A stretch of DNA of 22,254 bases from a virus, in IMG/VR virus record IMGVR_UViG_3300035107_000090, positions 1 through 22,254 of that record; one strand, 5' to 3'. Below, in pieces: positions 13,822-22,025 of this stretch. Below the pieces are notes generated by a model. It ran no database searches. It was not told the origin of the DNA and was given only the letters and a program-made list of their open reading frames with translations. Each line of letters opens with the position of its first letter. The stretch's first letter is position 1. The translations under genes and the position numbers were made by a program.

Positions 13822-14447
13822 TGACAAGTCCTGTATCAGAGTTACAAAAAATAAATCCAAGTAGTATTATTGAGCTTTTTCAACTTGAGTTAATAACTGC
13901 TATTCATGGTTCTAATACAGTTTACTATTTTCATAATGGAGTAAACACTAATGAAAACCAAGACGTAATTTTTGCTGGTAATCAATATACACGGATGCCA
14001 ATACAGGCTACTGGTTTTGATTTTACTTCTAAAAAATTACCTCGACCTCGCTTATCTATTTCTAATATTTTAGGAACATTTACAACTTTAATATTAACTT
14101 TACCTCAAGGTTTAGAAGGAGCAAAAGTTACTCGTATTAGAACTTTGAGCAGATATATTGATAATGTTAATTTTCTTGGTGGTGATATTTTATTAGAAGA
14201 TGGTAATTTTTTATTGCAAGAAAATGGAAGTTTAATAGATATGGAGGCTGGTATAAATCCATTTGGTACACCTGATCCTACTGCTACATTTGCAACTCAA
14301 ATATTTTTTATAGATAGAAAAGTTGCAGAAAACAGAAATGGAGTAGAATTTGAATTAAGTGCTAGTTTTGATCTTGATGGAGTACGATTACCAAAACGGC
14401 AGGTGCTACCTCAAGATTTTCCTGGCGTTGGATCGTTTTTCGCATGA
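13821..14447 (+). CDS. Minor tail protein, lambda gpL-like, without cysteines
   Basis: 208 aa. [20 protein letters not shown] opens the family pattern; [19 protein letters not shown] (51-69), [13 protein letters not shown] and [17 protein letters not shown] follow, then [24 protein letters not shown] and [18 protein letters not shown]. Lambda gpL ends in a cysteine-rich iron-sulfur domain; this protein stops just after the 'LPKRQVL' element and has no cysteine at all. A stretch at 122-144 ([17 protein letters not shown]) interrupts the usual 'NF-x-NP...DPT' link. The gene ends in an ATGA overlap with the next one. Confidence 0.85.
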
Positions 14448-15157
14448 CTTGGCAAGATAAAGCATTAGAACACGCAATACAAGAACAACCAAGAGAATCT
14501 TGTGGTCTTTTAGTTATTAAAAAAGGAAAAGAAGTTTATTTTCCCTGTAAAAATTTAGCGTTTGATCCGTCAGATCAATTTATTATTGATGCTGATGATT
14601 GGGTAAGAATTGAAGATAATGAAGGAGAGATAGTTGGTGTTGTTCATAGTCATCCAGTTACAAGTGCAAAACCGAGTGAAGCAGATAGAGTTGCTTGTGA
14701 AAAGTCAGATTTAAAATGGTGGATAGTACAGCCACAGCTAAAAGATTGGCAGTATTGCGAACCATGTGGTTATAAAGCACCTCTAATTGGCAGAAAATGG
14801 GTCTGGGGTGTTACTGATTGTTGGAGTTTATGTAGAGATTGGTATAAAGAAGAATTAGGAATAGAACTTATTGATTGGATTAGACCAAATAATCCAGAAG
14901 ATTTTATAAAGAACCCAATGTTTGTAGATTGTTTTGCAAAAACAGGATTTAGAGAATTACATCCAGAAGAAGATTTAGAATATGGAGATTTATTATTAAT
15001 GTCAATAAGCAGTAGCGGATTAAATCATATTGGTGTTTACTTAGGACAGCAAACAGTTTTGCATCATTTACAAAATAGGTTATCAAGTCGTGATCTATTA
15101 GATGAATGGTTGTTAAAATGTACAGGTAAGAGGATTCGTTATGTTAAGGAAAATTAG
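14444..15157 (+). CDS. Tail-tip endopeptidase, lambda gpK-like (JAMM + NlpC/P60)
   Basis: 237 aa with two domains. The N-terminal JAMM/Mov34 metalloprotease has Glu18 (RESCGLL) and H68-S-H70 followed after seven residues by S78-x-x-D81, a complete zinc site. The C-terminal NlpC/P60 cysteine peptidase has Cys126 ([12 protein letters not shown]) and His195 (LNHIGVYLG), with a likely third catalytic residue at His207 or His208. Proteins of this type process tail-tip proteins and help penetrate peptidoglycan. ATGA coupling links it to gpL, and its last 17 nt overlap the gpI start. Confidence 0.9.
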
Positions 15158-15749
15158 ATTATACGGAGAACTCGCTAAGTTTTTAGGTCAGAAAACTTTT
15201 GAAGCTGAAGTCCATAGTGCTGCACAGGCAGTAAGGTTTTTAGTTGTTAATTTTCCACAGCTAGAAGCACATATGGGAAATAGATATTACAAAGTATTAG
15301 TTGGTAATTGGGAAATAAAAGAAGAAGAAATACATTATCCAAATGGACAAGAAGATATAAAAATTGTTCCTATTGTTGGAGGAGAAGGAGGTAGAGGTAC
15401 TCGTCAATTTTTATTAGGAGTGGCTTTAATTGGTACAGCTATATTATTACCTGGTGCAGCTCCAGTATTTAGTGGTTCTTTTACAGCAGGAGCTAGTGGA
15501 TTTGCTGCAACAAGTGCTGCAATCATTGGAAATGTTGGTCTTGCTTTAGCTTTCTCAGGACTTGCTCAAATGTTAACTCCTGTTGAAAATATAAAAGAAA
15601 ATGAACAAGATCCTAGATTGTCATTTAATTTTAGTGGAATACAAAATACATCAAGGGCTGGTGTTCCAGTGCCTGTAATCTATGGAGAAACTATGGTTGG
15701 ATCTGTTGTTATTTCAGCAGCGATTGAAAACGAACAGGTAGAAGTATGA
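15141..15749 (+). CDS. Tail assembly protein, lambda gpI-like
   Basis: 202 aa from ATG 15141, preceded by an AAGAGG SD inside the gpK gene. The N-terminal 80 residues have a ubiquitin-like pattern ([20 protein letters not shown] ... [10 protein letters not shown]). A Gly-rich turn leads to two hydrophobic segments (90-112 and 127-145), then a soluble tail with [20 protein letters not shown]. This is the standard layout of the lambda_tail_I family, which is needed to assemble gpJ but may not remain in the tail. The stop overlaps the gpJ start as ATGA. Confidence 0.88.
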
Positions 15750-18700
15750 AGATTATAGGTTCTGGTGGAGGAAAAGGAGGAGGAGGTGGTGGTGGCACTC
15801 CGCATGAAGATAAAGATAACCTTGATTCAAAATCTTTTGCTAGGATTCTTGATCTTATAGGAGAAGGTGAAATAAGTGGTTTAGTTGATGGTGCTAAATC
15901 TATATTTTTTAACAACACACCATTACAAGCTGCTGATGGTAGTTTTAATTTTAAAGATGTTTCATTTGAGACAAGAACTGGAACATCTAGTCAGACTGTA
16001 ATACCAATAACTAGAAATGTTGCTACAACAAAAACAGTAGCTGGTGCTGGAACAGCTATTCCTTCTGGTAGTGCTGGTAGGGTTATACAAATAACTGATT
16101 CAGATGTTGATGCAGTTTCTCTTCAAATAACTGTTCCTGCTTTGCAACGATTTAGTGATGAAGGAGATATTTTTGGTACTGATGTAGAACTAGCAATTCT
16201 TGTTCAATATAGCGGTGGTGGTTATCAAACTGTTTTGTCTGGTGGTTCGGCAAAAATTGCTGGTAGAACACCTGATCCATATGTAAGAGACTATCTTGTA
16301 AATCTTAATGGTGCGTTTCCTGTAAATATAAAAGTACAAAGGATTACAGCAGATAGTACATCATCAAAATTACAAAATGAAATTCAATTTAACAGTTATG
16401 TTGAAATTAAATATGACAAAAGAAGTTATCCAAACAGTGCATTAATTGGATTAAAAGTAGATGCAGAACAATTTTCATCAATTCCTTCTAGAAAATATTT
16501 AGTAAAAGGTATCAAAGTAAAGATTCCACATAATGCAACAGTTAATGCTGATGGCAGTTTATCTTATACAGGAACATTTAATGGAACACTAGGTGCAGCA
16601 CAATATACAAACGATCCAGCTTGGTGTTTATACGATCTTCTTACGTCCTCTAGATATGGATTAGGTGCTCATGTTGTTGAGACTGAAATAGATAAATTTA
16701 GTTTTTATGCAGCTTCAGTTTATTGCTCACAACAAGTTGATGACGGCACAGGAACAGGTGCTACTGAGCCACGTTTTTCTTGTAATGTAAATATCAATAA
16801 TCAACAAGAAGCATATAACGTGATAAATCAGATGTGTTCTGTATTTAGAGCTATGCCATACTATGAAGCTGGCAATATAACTGTTACACAAGATTCTCCA
16901 AAAGATTCTAGCTATTTATTTACACTTGCTAATGTATTAGAACCTGGATTTAATTATTCAAATACAAGTCAAAGGCAAAGACCTACAGTTGTAGTTGCAA
17001 AATATTTAGATTTAGAGTTAAGAGATATAAATTATGTTGAAGAAATTGATACCGCAAACCAAGCAAGGTATGGATCAGTTGTCCGAAATATAGATGCGTT
17101 TGCCTGTACATCAAGAGGTCAAGCTGCAAGATTAGCAAAATGGCTACTTTATATGAGCAATGTGGAACGTGAGGTTGTTTCATTTACCACCTCTATAGAT
17201 GCTGGTGCGGTTGTAAGACCAGGCCAGATTATTGAAATAGCTGATCCTGTTCGTAGCGGAGAAAGAAGAGGTGGTCGTATTGTTTCTGCAACAACTAATT
17301 CTGTAACTGTAGATGATGCTACTGGACTAAGTATTCAAGGTGCATCAACACTAAGTGTTGTTTTACCCGATGGCACAGTGGAACAAGTTACAGTCTCAGG
17401 TATTACTAATAATGTTTTTAGTCTTGGTCAGCATTTTTCTGCTGCACCAAATCCTAATAGTGTTTGGATATTTGAAACGAGTACTATTCTTACAACAACT
17501 TGGAGAGTATTAGAAGTTCAAGAACAAGATAGAATTAATTATGTTATTACTGCCAGTGAATATAATTCTGGTAAATATAATCATATTGAAAATGGTATAG
17601 CGTTACCAGTAAGAGATGTAACTAATTTAGACATCCCACCAGCCGCACCATCAAATGTCAGTGCAACAGAAGTTATTTATGAAAACACTGGAATAGCAAG
17701 AGTAAAGATTGTTGTTAGTTGGACAAGTACTTCAGATACACATTACATACGTTATAGATTACAGAATGGAAACTTTATATCAAGAACTGTAGATAATTCA
17801 AAAAGTTATGAAATTTTAGATACTATCGCTGGTAATTATCAAATTGAAGTTTATAGCGTAAGTTCTTCTGGTTTACGATCTACGACCTTTAACACACCTC
17901 AGAGTCCATTTTTTGTAGCAAGAGGTAAAACTGATCCTCCATCTAATGTTAGTGGGGTTAGTTTATTACCGATTGACGAGACAAGTGCGATATTAAGCTG
18001 GAATCGTGCCACAGAACTTGATGTATTGTTAGGTGGCAAGACTTTGATCAGACACTCTAGCAAAACAACAGGTGCTCAATGGAAGGATGGACAGAATATA
18101 GTTGTAGCTGCCGCTGGAAACCAAACACAGAAGATTGTTCCTTTATTAGCAGGAACCTATTTAATTAAATTTGAAGATGATGGAGGTCGTGAAAGTCCTT
18201 CACCAGGCTCACAGGATTCTGCTTGGAATAATACTAGAGTCACTACTAATTTACCTGCACCATCTGAAAGATTGTTAGTAGGAAATGTAGATGAACATAC
18301 ACCAAACTTTACTGGTTCAAAGACAAATACAGTTTATGATTCTTCTTTAGATGCTTTAAAACTTGCGATAACTAATAATGCGGTATCTACTACTGGAGAA
18401 TATGTTTTTGCTAATTCTGTAGACTTGACGCAGCCATATGACGTAAACCTAAGAAAAGTTCTTGAAGCATCTAGTTTTAATTTAAATAATTTATGGGATG
18501 ATAGAGTTGATTTAGTAGATGATTGGGGATATATAGATCAAGTTGGTGGATTAACTGAAGCCACAAAATGTAATGCTGCTGTTTATGTAAGATCAACAAA
18601 TGATGACCCATCAGGTTCACCAACATGGAGTGCTTATAAAGAGTTTAGTAATGTTCTAATTACAGGTAGGGCATTTCAATTTAAAGCAATATTAACAAGT

Positions 18701-19003
18701 AATGACACTAACCAAAATATAGCTGTCACTAAATTAGGTGCTAAATTAGAATTACAAGGAAGAACAGAATCTATTTCGACTCCAGTTACTACTGGTTCGC
18801 AACAATATTCTGTTTCTTTTACAAACGCATTTAAGCAAACACCAACTGTAGTAGTGACTCCAACTAATCAACAATCTGGGGATTTCCATGAACTTGCTAA
18901 TATAAGTAGGACGGGTTTTCAAGTCACTTTTAAAAATGGCAGTTCAGCAGTTGCAAGATCATTTGTATGGGCAGCATCAGGTTTTGGTAAGGAGGTCACA
19001 TAA
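15746..19003 (+). CDS. Tail tip / central fibre protein, lambda gpJ-like
   Basis: 1085 aa, close to lambda gpJ (about 1130). The start has the characteristic Gly/Lys-rich leader and EDKDNLDSKSFARILDLIGE with GEISGLVDG. The middle carries the hub domains (AWCLYDLLTSSRYGLGAHV near 292-310; RGQAARLAKWLLYMSNVERE near 454-473). Two fibronectin type III-like domains follow (about residues 630-720 and 728-818). The C-terminal 60 residues form a beta-rich end (TPTVVVTPTNQQSG ... VWAASGFGK) likely to contact the next fibre or the receptor. gpJ forms the trimeric hub and host-recognition tip. It overlaps the next gene by one base (TAATG). Confidence 0.92.
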   Translation: MKIIGSGGGKGGGGGGGTPHEDKDNLDSKSFARILDLIGEGEISGLVDGAKSIFFNNTPLQAADGSFNFKDVSFETRTGTSSQTVIPITRNVATTKTVAGAGTAIPSGSAGRVIQITDSDVDAVSLQITVPALQRFSDEGDIFGTDVELAILVQYSGGGYQTVLSGGSAKIAGRTPDPYVRDYLVNLNGAFPVNIKVQRITADSTSSKLQNEIQFNSYVEIKYDKRSYPNSALIGLKVDAEQFSSIPSRKYLVKGIKVKIPHNATVNADGSLSYTGTFNGTLGAAQYTNDPAWCLYDLLTSSRYGLGAHVVETEIDKFSFYAASVYCSQQVDDGTGTGATEPRFSCNVNINNQQEAYNVINQMCSVFRAMPYYEAGNITVTQDSPKDSSYLFTLANVLEPGFNYSNTSQRQRPTVVVAKYLDLELRDINYVEEIDTANQARYGSVVRNIDAFACTSRGQAARLAKWLLYMSNVEREVVSFTTSIDAGAVVRPGQIIEIADPVRSGERRGGRIVSATTNSVTVDDATGLSIQGASTLSVVLPDGTVEQVTVSGITNNVFSLGQHFSAAPNPNSVWIFETSTILTTTWRVLEVQEQDRINYVITASEYNSGKYNHIENGIALPVRDVTNLDIPPAAPSNVSATEVIYENTGIARVKIVVSWTSTSDTHYIRYRLQNGNFISRTVDNSKSYEILDTIAGNYQIEVYSVSSSGLRSTTFNTPQSPFFVARGKTDPPSNVSGVSLLPIDETSAILSWNRATELDVLLGGKTLIRHSSKTTGAQWKDGQNIVVAAAGNQTQKIVPLLAGTYLIKFEDDGGRESPSPGSQDSAWNNTRVTTNLPAPSERLLVGNVDEHTPNFTGSKTNTVYDSSLDALKLAITNNAVSTTGEYVFANSVDLTQPYDVNLRKVLEASSFNLNNLWDDRVDLVDDWGYIDQVGGLTEATKCNAAVYVRSTNDDPSGSPTWSAYKEFSNVLITGRAFQFKAILTSNDTNQNIAVTKLGAKLELQGRTESISTPVTTGSQQYSVSFTNAFKQTPTVVVTPTNQQSGDFHELANISRTGFQVTFKNGSSAVARSFVWAASGFGKEVT

Positions 19004-19965
19004 TGAGTAATACGTCAGATTATAATTTAGCTAACCAAGTCGGTTCTTCTTTTAGAGCCGAACTTAATACTGTATTAGGGGATGTTCAGTCTTTAAATAG
19101 TGGATCGTCAGATCCTACAACTACTGTTGCTTACAAGATATGGGTAGATACTTCAACAAACTTACTAAAAATTAGGAATAGTTCAAATAATGGCTGGTTG
19201 GTTTTAGGAAGTCTGACAGATGCAGCACATACTAATAACTTTGGATTAGCAACAAAAGCTGATCCAGATTTTACAGGCACAGTAGATTCTGCTGGTGATA
19301 TTGTTATGGCTGGTACAGGAGCATTAAAATTACCAAGTGGTACAACCGCCCAAAGACCAACAGCAGCTACAGGTCAGATAAGATTTAACAACACCACGAC
19401 AGAATTTGAAGGATATAACGGATCAGCTTGGGGTGGTTTAGCTTCTGGAGTGCCTGTAGGTACAATCCTTGCTCATGCAGCCAATACACCACCAACAGGA
19501 TTTTTAGAATGTAATGGATCGAATATTAGTAGATCAACTTATGCAACATTGTTCTCTACCATATCTACAACATTTGGTGTAGGAGATGGATCATCAACTT
19601 TTGCTTTACCTGATCTAAGAGGACAATTTATTAGAGGTTGGGCTAATACTGGCAGCACTGATGCAAGTAGAGTTTTTGGTTCGACACAAACAGATCAAAA
19701 CAAGAATCACACTCATACAACAGATTCAACAACTTTAACTGGTGGTATCAGAAAAATATCAGAAGGTTTTTTAGCTGGAGGAAGTGCAACTGGTGTATTT
19801 ACAAAAACAAGTGATGGCAACAACTCTATTACAGGTAGTTCTTCTACTAGCCCTGTGGGTGGTGTAGATTTCGATGGCACTCACACTCATACAATATCAA
19901 GTAGTGGTGGTGGAACTGAGGCACGACCCACAAACCTTGCTTTAATGTACATAATCAAGTTTTAA
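19003..19965 (+). CDS. Tail fibre protein with collar domain
   Basis: 320 aa. Residues 1-75 (YNLANQVGSSFRAELNTVL, then IWVDTSTNLLKIRNSSNNGW) resemble an attachment module common in marine-phage fibres. Residues 86-144 are a module shared with the next gene. Residues 149-212 form a phage tail-collar domain (VPVGTILAHAANTPPTGFLE, FALPDLRGQFIRGW). The end contains NHTHTT (235-240) and THTHT (293-297), HxH pairs similar in spirit to the iron-binding histidines of T4 gp12-type fibres, and closes with ARPTNLALMYIIKF. It is probably a trimeric host-binding fibre. Confidence 0.85.
   Translation: MSNTSDYNLANQVGSSFRAELNTVLGDVQSLNSGSSDPTTTVAYKIWVDTSTNLLKIRNSSNNGWLVLGSLTDAAHTNNFGLATKADPDFTGTVDSAGDIVMAGTGALKLPSGTTAQRPTAATGQIRFNNTTTEFEGYNGSAWGGLASGVPVGTILAHAANTPPTGFLECNGSNISRSTYATLFSTISTTFGVGDGSSTFALPDLRGQFIRGWANTGSTDASRVFGSTQTDQNKNHTHTTDSTTLTGGIRKISEGFLAGGSATGVFTKTSDGNNSITGSSSTSPVGGVDFDGTHTHTISSSGGGTEARPTNLALMYIIKF
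19300..19434 (+). repeat. Fibre module, copy 1
   Basis: This codes for residues 100-144 of the 320-aa fibre (GTGALKLPSGTTAQRP ... EFEGYNGSAWG). It is related to 21156-21293 in the next gene, with 'SGTTAQRP', 'RFN' and 'EFEGY-x-GSAWG' kept. It is a protein-level repeat, diverged in DNA, most likely from module sharing between fibre genes. Confidence 0.75.
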
Positions 19966-19967
19966 TT

Positions 19968-22025
19968 ATGACAAATAAAAAGATAACCGAATTTACAGAG
20001 CTTACCGCACCAGCGAGCACTGATGTCCTACCGATTATTGATGCAAGTGATACAAGTAATAAGAAGATAAGTTATGCAAATTTACTAAGTAAAGCTCCAG
20101 ATGGATCTACTTCTGCTCCTGCATTTAGTTTTAATTCTGATCCAAACACAGGAATAAGTGGAGGATCGGATACTTTAACCTTTAGCACAGGTGGAACTGG
20201 CAGAATGTCTATCAGTTCTGCTGGTCTTGTAAATATCGTAGGAGATTTAACTGTTGGTGGAACGACTACCACAATAAATACAACCACACTTGATGTTGAG
20301 GATAAAAATATTACTCTTGGAAAAGTATCAACTCCAACTGATACAACTGCCGATGGCGGTGGTTTAACTCTTAAAGGTGCATCTGATAAAACATTCAATT
20401 GGGTAAATGCAACAGATTCATGGACAAGTAGTGAACATTTATCTGTTTCTGGTCAAAAAGAAGTTAGATATTTAGATGCTGATTCATCTCATTATGTTGG
20501 TTTTAAATCTCCTGCAACAGTCTCATCTAATGTGGTTTGGACATTACCTTCTGCTGATTCTTCTGTAAGTGGATATGTTTTATCAAGTAATGCTTCTGGA
20601 GTTCTTAGTTGGGTAGCTCCTGGTCAAAATGCAGATCCTAATTTTACTGGTACGCTAACTCTTACTGATGATGGAAATATTAGAGGATTTGCTTCTACTC
20701 AGGCTACATATACTGGATCTGTCAAAACTTTTACTGTTACTGTTGCAACAAAGACCGCAGCACATAGATATAACGGAAGTGGCTCTAGTAATGGATATGT
20801 AATAGATGGTAAAGAAGCACCATTTTTAACTCTCACACCTGGTCGTACTTATAAATTTGATCAATCACATTCAAGTAATACTGGTCATCCTTTACGTTTT
20901 TATCTTGAAGCAAATAAAACTACAGCTTATACAACAAACGTAACTGTAAATGGCACAGCAGGTCAAAGTGGTGCATATGTGCAGATTGTCATAGGAGATA
21001 CTACTCCGATGGTTATTCATTATCAATGTTCATCTCATGCGTTGATGGGTAATGCGATCCAGACAAACTCTGCAACAGCTACAGGAACTCTATTGTCCAG
21101 CCTAAGTGTTAGTGGAAATATGGATGTTACTGGCACATTTACTGTTAGCGACAATATTTTGATGACAGGAACAGGAGCTATTGATGTTGCTTCTGGAACT
21201 ACAGCACAAAGACCAGGATCTCCTTCTGCTGGTATGTTCAGATTTAATAGTCAGACATCAGAGTTTGAAGGGTACGATGGTAGTGCTTGGGGAGAAATCG
21301 GTGGATCAGCAGCTACAGGAACAGCAGATTTATTAGACATTGCTTCATCTTCTGGAACGGGTGGTGGATCGGCTACATTTAATGGATCTGCTTACAGATT
21401 TAAGCTAGTCACAAAAGGTACAAGTACAGCAGTAACACCAGTTAATGCTGAGATATTAAGAGTATCTATCAATGGTGTTATGCAACAGCCTAATGATGGA
21501 TCTGGACAAGGGGATATGACAGATGGATATGTTGTAAGCGGTACTGATATTATCTTTGATTCTGCTCCTCCTAGTGGATCTACATATTTCATCATTAATA
21601 TGGGAACTCAAATTGCTGTTGGCAATGCAACTACTTCTACGATTGCTGATGAGAGTTCTGATACTACTTGTTTTCCTCTGTTTACCACCGCAGCAACAGG
21701 AGATTTAGGGTTAAAGTCAGGATCAAATCTTACATTTAACTCTTCTACAGGATTATTAACAGCGACTACATTTAGTGGATCAGGTGCAAGTTTAACTAAT
21801 TTACCTTCTTCTGCACTTACTGGAGCGTTGCCAGCTATAGATGGATCTGCGTTAACTGGAGTTTCATCACAAAAAGCTGATGGTTGCGTTACAGAAAATT
21901 CGCTAACAATTTCAAATAATTATACTATGACCACAAACAAGTCAGGTATAAGTGCAGGGGATATAATAGTAGCAAGTGGGGTAACAGTTACCATTCCGTC
22001 AGGTTCACGTTATGTTATTGTCTAG
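19968..22025 (+). CDS. Large tail fibre with internal cupredoxin-like domain
   Basis: 685 aa, Ser/Thr/Gly-rich and beta-structured. Residues 1-40 (KKITEFTELTAPASTDVLPI) are a fibre N-terminal element. Residues 50-215 carry repeats common in marine phage fibres (TTTLDVEDKNITLGKVSTPT, TDSWTSSEHLSV). Residues 262-367 form a cupredoxin-like domain with His307, Cys354, His357 and Met360. Residues 397-442 repeat the module of the previous fibre. The C-terminus (SLTISNNYTMTTNKSGISAG ... VTIPSGSRYVIV) is a stereotyped beta end. It begins 2 nt after the previous stop and lacks an SD. The likely role is host-surface recognition. Confidence 0.85.
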   Translation: MTNKKITEFTELTAPASTDVLPIIDASDTSNKKISYANLLSKAPDGSTSAPAFSFNSDPNTGISGGSDTLTFSTGGTGRMSISSAGLVNIVGDLTVGGTTTTINTTTLDVEDKNITLGKVSTPTDTTADGGGLTLKGASDKTFNWVNATDSWTSSEHLSVSGQKEVRYLDADSSHYVGFKSPATVSSNVVWTLPSADSSVSGYVLSSNASGVLSWVAPGQNADPNFTGTLTLTDDGNIRGFASTQATYTGSVKTFTVTVATKTAAHRYNGSGSSNGYVIDGKEAPFLTLTPGRTYKFDQSHSSNTGHPLRFYLEANKTTAYTTNVTVNGTAGQSGAYVQIVIGDTTPMVIHYQCSSHALMGNAIQTNSATATGTLLSSLSVSGNMDVTGTFTVSDNILMTGTGAIDVASGTTAQRPGSPSAGMFRFNSQTSEFEGYDGSAWGEIGGSAATGTADLLDIASSSGTGGGSATFNGSAYRFKLVTKGTSTAVTPVNAEILRVSINGVMQQPNDGSGQGDMTDGYVVSGTDIIFDSAPPSGSTYFIINMGTQIAVGNATTSTIADESSDTTCFPLFTTAATGDLGLKSGSNLTFNSSTGLLTATTFSGSGASLTNLPSSALTGALPAIDGSALTGVSSQKADGCVTENSLTISNNYTMTTNKSGISAGDIIVASGVTVTIPSGSRYVIV
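20751..21068 (+). other. Cupredoxin-like domain inside the fibre gene
   Basis: Residues 262-367 of the 685-aa fibre. The strand LTLTPGRTYKFDQSHSSNTG leads to His307 (GHPLRF), then AYVQIVIGDTTPMVIHYQ leads to the ligand loop Cys354-S-S-His357-A-L-Met360. C-x2-H-x2-M is the ligand-loop spacing of amicyanin; plastocyanin has C-x2-H-x4-M. All four type-1 copper ligands are present. Metal binding itself is not shown by sequence. Confidence 0.7.
21156..21293 (+). repeat. Fibre module, copy 2
   Basis: This codes for residues 397-442 of the large fibre (GTGAIDVASGTTAQRP ... EFEGYDGSAWG), aligning with copy 1 at 19300-19434 with a one-residue gap. A shorter shared element, ADP(D/N)FTGT, precedes both copies in their proteins (residues 86-93 in the 320-aa fibre; 222-229 here, much further upstream). 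Confidence 0.75.

Follow-up and report, generated by a model that had tools for sequence, protein, structure and literature searches.

We found that a tail fibre protein encoded in the window, the window being the whole stretch of DNA analysed here (a 22,254-base virus record), carries a cupredoxin domain with four predicted copper ligands that are conserved together. With moderate confidence, we propose that this domain is a mobile cupredoxin on the fibre, probably copper-binding, and that it acts as an accessory module for surface contact. Copper loading of the predicted His-Cys-His-Met site is likely, considering the joint selection of the ligands and the loop precedent of amicyanin and PDB entry 2vmj; the contact role, suggested by the mobile and adhesin-associated pattern of the sequences, is put forward tentatively.

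The cupredoxin domain is located in a tail fibre, on the basis of family assignment and gene position. Residues 223-673 of the ORF match PHROG 30742, annotated as "tail fiber protein" (E 1.2e-50), and the ORF stands directly after the genes of a J-like tip protein and a collar fibre, which close an upstream lambda-like tail set including also minor tail protein L (PF05100) and a JAB plus NlpC/P60 protein. The latter (window 14444-15157) is a single protein combining a JAB peptidase-like and an NlpC/P60 domain, comparable to lambda tail protein K. No Pfam or NCBIfam model matched the 685-residue fibre protein, its full-length model was poor (pLDDT 39), and the nearest terminases of the phage are only about 43% identical. 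Display of the domain on the phage particle is very probable. The features of this region are:

15746-19003, + strand: J-like tail tip attachment protein (PF24801, E 1.6e-27; PF13550, E 5.3e-21)
19003-19965, + strand: adjoining fibre with phage tail collar domain (PF07484, E 2.7e-22)
19968-22025, + strand: tail fibre protein with cupredoxin domain, 685 residues (ORF; PHROG 30742; gene order)
about 20700-21074, + strand: cupredoxin domain, approximately residues 245-369 (AlphaFold2 model and cupredoxin matches in PDB)
20721-20750, + strand: first long beta strand of the cupredoxin domain, residues 252-261 (DSSP strand E8-17 of the model)
20886-20888, + strand: codon of His307, the first of the predicted copper ligands (retained by 240 distinct copies)
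21027-21029, + strand: Cys354 codon, predicted copper thiolate ligand (strand end in the model; codon conservation)
21036-21038, + strand: codon of His357, a predicted copper ligand (in model loop 111-117)
21045-21047, + strand: codon of Met360, the predicted axial ligand of the copper (also in model loop 111-117)
21102-21323, + strand: fibre repeat, residues 379-452, common to the adjoining collar fibre (BLASTP)
21324-22025, + strand: C-terminal part of the fibre, replaced or variable in relatives (coverage among relatives; differing ends)

An earlier note on this DNA had placed a domain of about 105 residues at 20751-21068, with the full His/Cys/His/Met set of a type-1 copper site and a short C-x2-H-x2-M loop. 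The translation of this segment yields 106 residues including GHPLRF and IHYQCSSHALMG, and the ligands are found exactly at the positions given, His307, Cys354, His357 and Met360 in the numbering of the 685-residue ORF, with a spacing of 47 residues between His307 and Cys354 and with CSSHALM as the loop; their order and distances along the chain fit a type-1 copper site. The sequence therefore stands as written and the boundary has to be shifted, as the domain starts some 17 residues further upstream, with VKTFTVTVAT as one of its strands. The description of the domain as embedded between fibre repeats holds at least for the C-terminal side, where a segment of the collar fibre recurs as residues 379-452 (BLASTP, 74 columns at 49% identity, E 2e-17). 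The pattern H-(25-80)-C-x2-H-x2-M is present in this fibre only among the 18 window proteins, and it appeared in 7 of 20,000 composition shuffles of the fibre ORF and in 11 of 3,000 shuffles of the 18 window proteins. Being so rare in shuffles, the motif is unlikely to be a product of chance, an explanation that we rejected on the ORF shuffles together with the conservation of the ligands.

The structure prediction that the earlier note had called for returned a cupredoxin fold. The AlphaFold2 model of residues 245-369, for which the input was alignment A2 of 39 diverse copies, has eight strands, with a pLDDT of 92.2 and a pTM of 0.87. By VIA-align, the top match was the N-terminal cupredoxin domain of 2dv6 (Z 9.2 over 99 residues, 2.7 A, 18% identity, where a Z of 7 to 9 by itself may reflect merely a common arrangement), followed by two-domain laccases and rusticyanin, nearly all the matches listed being cupredoxins; the best solved matches by Foldseek were rusticyanins (E 1.9e-4). 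It is difficult to account in any other way for such a uniform list of cupredoxins combined with the ligand set. In the model, His307 (model residue 63) comes just before strand 65-68, Cys354 is the last residue of strand 105-110, and His357 and Met360 lie in loop 111-117, which follows the Cys354 strand; according to the strand list of the model, the predicted ligand positions are as in type-1 copper proteins. Giant-virus "beta-sandwich" proteins in BFVD (Pithovirus and Marseillevirus of the LCPAC/LCMAC series) also matched the domain model (Foldseek E 1e-8 to 1e-5).

The conservation of the site was followed at increasing distance from the window copy. All four ligands are kept in 80 of the 80 nearest IMG/VR relatives, H and CxxHxxM in 245 of 245 copies of a wider set, and the profile over all loci gave 240 distinct copies complete for H-C-H-M, in a sample biased to intact sites as some search peptides included the Cys motif, although exceptions still turned up. 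In A2, only five columns are invariant, and four of them are the ligands. Among 56 distinct close relatives, both CAT and CAC are used at His307 and at His357, both TGT and TGC at Cys354 with no other residue, and ATG at Met360 in all 56. Given this synonymous variation of the His and Cys codons, and a dN/dS of about 0.14 for the domain in close relatives, purifying selection is indicated.

Free replacement of the ligands in homologues, which would have spoken against a copper site, is not what we saw: the few exceptions to the 240 complete copies are losses of the site as a block. Indeed, in the named phages ACG-2014b, Syn30, S-TIM4, PSS2 (gp080), P-RSM6 and S-SZBM1, either the C-x2-H-x2-M loop is gone as a whole or three of the four ligands are changed, and no replacement of a single ligand was seen among the copies compared. 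In a rough tree, built with no support values, the ligand-free copies of ACG-2014b, Syn30 and S-TIM4 form one group and PSS2 stands apart, suggesting that the site was probably lost at least twice. The copy of cyanophage PSS2 (gp080; L310 592-930, + strand) is a stand-alone protein of 112 residues, annotated as a baseplate wedge subunit, in which three of the four ligands are lost. Since some cyanophage copies exist without the site, neither the fold nor the location in fibres requires copper.

Of 50,697 phage records, 63 contained related copies by one query and 97 by another, and no match was obtained in the plasmids searched for the domain. The named hosts shown for isolates are all marine (Synechococcus, Prochlorococcus, Pelagibacter and Methylophilales OM43), and the presence of similar domains in marine phage fibres, mentioned in the earlier note, was confirmed for phages of cyanobacteria, pelagiphages and OM43 phages. 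An initial set of 18 copies from named phages has little likeness to the window protein outside the domain, and the viral carriers fall in 14 flank clusters, which include fibres, a small protein of about 246 residues, and baseplate or other structural proteins. In one cluster, 85 viral ORFs (for example L114; L335 1288-2070, + strand) encode small proteins of about 246-260 residues that end in the domain, which shows that it also occurs outside fibres. Among the 80 relatives, coverage decreases from 80 to 43 loci toward the fibre C-terminus, partly since contigs end there, and the cupredoxin domain is kept while the C-terminus changes. The C-terminal end itself (21324-22025) varies even between relatives that are nearly identical elsewhere, as a host-range region would. 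As judged from these sequence contexts, the cupredoxin domain is a mobile module.

The domain is carried by cells as well. Single-cell and metagenome-assembled genomes encode it, several of them on long contigs and in clearly cellular proteins, such as lipoprotein-like proteins of SAR86, SAR92 and OM182, Marine Group II archaeal lipoproteins, a Prochlorococcus protein ending in DUF4214 and very long proteins of Bacteroidetes and Prochlorococcus; some "cellular" matches (L259-L262, L299-L300) look like phage genes within assemblies. Within the SAR86 family, 33 of 61 genomes have a match, mostly in one protein of about 635 residues. The SAR86 lipoprotein-like protein of about 632 residues (L331 1605-3497 and L332 1966-3861, both - strand) combines cadherin-like repeats with the copper-ligand domain and adjoins the same neighbouring gene in both loci. 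A Marine Group II archaeal lipoprotein (L281 3230-4324, + strand) has collagen-like repeats (PF01391) and a C-terminal cupredoxin domain, and in a SAR92 protein (L294 3293-4270, + strand) a phosphatidylethanolamine-binding (YbhB-like) domain is joined to it. The Pfam domains beside cellular copies are cadherin-like, Ig-like, collagen and FG-GAP, and the fusions with cadherin, Ig-like, collagen and DUF4214 domains point to extracellular contact. In the rough tree the window copy is near Prochlorococcus and Bacteroidetes copies, a position consistent with exchange between phages and cells.

In the mechanism that we propose, the domain sits in the conserved portion of the siphophage fibre and would bind one copper ion, most likely via His307, Cys354, His357 and Met360, the copper being taken from the host, the lysate or seawater. 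Most phage tail fibres are trimers, and three copies of the domain would be present per fibre if this fibre is a trimer. The copper would pin the ligand loops together and so stabilise the beta sandwich, and the resulting rigid face may help the particle to hold cell surfaces, as thought for Ig-like domains of other phages. Host-specific receptor binding is usual for the variable C-terminus of a fibre; since the domain lies outside it, in the conserved part, we consider a role in specific receptor recognition unlikely. An extended version, in which the copper module is swapped among phages and the adhesins of planktonic bacteria and archaea, the copper form is needed for adsorption and copper availability tunes infection in the sea, is speculative and we consider it unlikely.

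Copper might instead simply fold or harden the domain during assembly, with no contact with hosts or with metals of the sea, a less probable view that nevertheless deserves serious weight. It would agree with the position of the domain in a part of the fibre that is kept while the C-terminus changes, and with the conservation of the ligands across very different carriers, including the proteins of about 246 residues. However, ligand-free copies are still recognisable as the domain, which makes the metal unnecessary for the fold, and the repeated capture of the domain by unrelated virion and cell-surface proteins is not easily explained by a structural lock. Our preferred reading remains that of a copper-binding contact module.

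The window domain is below the curated cut-off of PF00127 (Copper-bind) and thus not matched by it, and among 39 relatives the same model matches 5 weakly, with a best E of 0.018. A Bacteroidetes protein (L330) links the domain to this family, as it passes PF00127 (32.3 bits, cut-off 21.2) and its HP, C, H and M align with those of the window domain in a match of E 2e-5. By hhalign, comparison with six classical copper proteins gave a probability of 58%, suggestive only, with Cys and the second His aligned and the first His not; the residue after the first His is Pro in the window domain versus Asn in the classical proteins of alignment A3. Single-domain queries of Pfam, NCBIfam and PDB sequences gave nothing usable, and a PDB profile search matched pseudoazurin 3tu6 weakly (E 0.023 with alignment A1, 0.52 with A2). 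Matches to At5g54830, CBM_4_9 and Ig were weak and below cut-off, and were discarded. The description that fits these comparisons best is that of a divergent branch of the cupredoxins, one that no curated family covers.

This weak likeness to classical blue-copper proteins (no Pfam cut-off reached, 58% by hhalign) would suit a different use of the four residues, for instance the binding of another metal such as zinc or thiol chemistry of the Cys, in a cupredoxin-like fold that is copper-free in nature. We regard such a use as rather unlikely, given that the four ligands reproduce the type-1 set and order exactly and are jointly invariant, and that the bridging protein L330 passes the copper-binding Pfam model. 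The title of PDB entry 2vmj also describes a CTPHPFM loop grafted into nitrite reductase, and the equal length of the loop in the window domain argues for copper.

Another possibility, a Trojan-horse model with copper, is that the copper of the fibre serves as bait or cargo for the metal uptake of the host, or that the particle scavenges copper. Metal-binding tail fibres of marine phages have been proposed in this sense for iron (PMC11705849), and every named host of the domain-bearing isolates is marine. We find this possibility quite doubtful, as cells themselves have the domain in adhesin-like proteins. Moreover, a type-1 site holds copper tightly and partly buried, and we know of no host copper receptor for these bacteria. 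Finally, type-1 copper proteins are usually electron carriers, and the domain could pass electrons to or from host surface proteins during adsorption, but this is very improbable, and the least likely reading of all, since no partner enzyme was recognised within the 22-kb fragment and electron shuttling is difficult to picture for a domain that is built into a fibre or, in cells, into an adhesin-like protein.

Among open-access journal papers, we found none on a cupredoxin or copper in phage tails or particles, and the annotation of the homologues goes no further than tail fibre or virion structural protein. What appears undescribed is not the fold or the site, both of them known, but their use as a virion module that is displayed and widely shared. 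The type-1 copper domains known so far are electron carriers or parts of enzymes, and here the site is strictly selected in a module of phage fibres, of baseplate and other virion proteins and of adhesin-like proteins of abundant ocean microbes, suggesting that a predicted copper-binding module is displayed on the particles of many marine viruses. If copper is indeed bound, marine virions carry an unassigned metal cofactor, and this would affect adsorption, the stability of the particles and how much trace metal viruses contain. Cultured cyanophages with the domain, and those without the site, make the question directly testable.

Several known systems resemble the window domain in part. Amicyanin, to which the earlier note had compared it, holds its type-1 copper with a His/Cys/His/Met set and a C-x2-H-x2-M loop, and the window domain has the same set and loop length. 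The name fits this loop only: among the matches listed, the closest folds are other cupredoxins, amicyanin is absent from the structural and sequence matches listed for the window domain, an absence that by itself does not speak against it, and the His-Cys spacing of plastocyanin is nearer to 47 than that of amicyanin. Amicyanin is also a soluble periplasmic electron carrier and partner of methylamine dehydrogenase, whereas the window domain is part of a fibre ORF. The best structural match, 2dv6, is the three-domain copper nitrite reductase of Hyphomicrobium denitrificans, where the domain is part of an enzyme and has no display function. Rusticyanin shares the type-1 copper fold at about 12% identity, but is an acid-stable soluble electron carrier. 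Compared with the plastocyanin/azurin family PF00127, to which it is connected through L330, the window domain has a short Met loop, is modular and is built into virion proteins.

Among phage proteins, the same domain is found in the tail fibres of PHROG 30742 and PHROG 693 (for example in Prochlorococcus phage P-SSM2) and in the baseplate connector of PHROG 677; the entries seen for these families are annotated as fibre or baseplate only and name no metal site. Ig-like domains are mobile beta-sandwich accessories on many virion proteins and are thought to aid the hold on cell surfaces; the window domain resembles them in this respect, but they have a different fold and no metal site. Metal is also held in the HxH tail fibres of T4 (gp37) and of Alteromonas phage R22Y, as octahedral iron (PMC11705849), but not in a type-1 copper site within a separate domain, as predicted for the fibre of the window.
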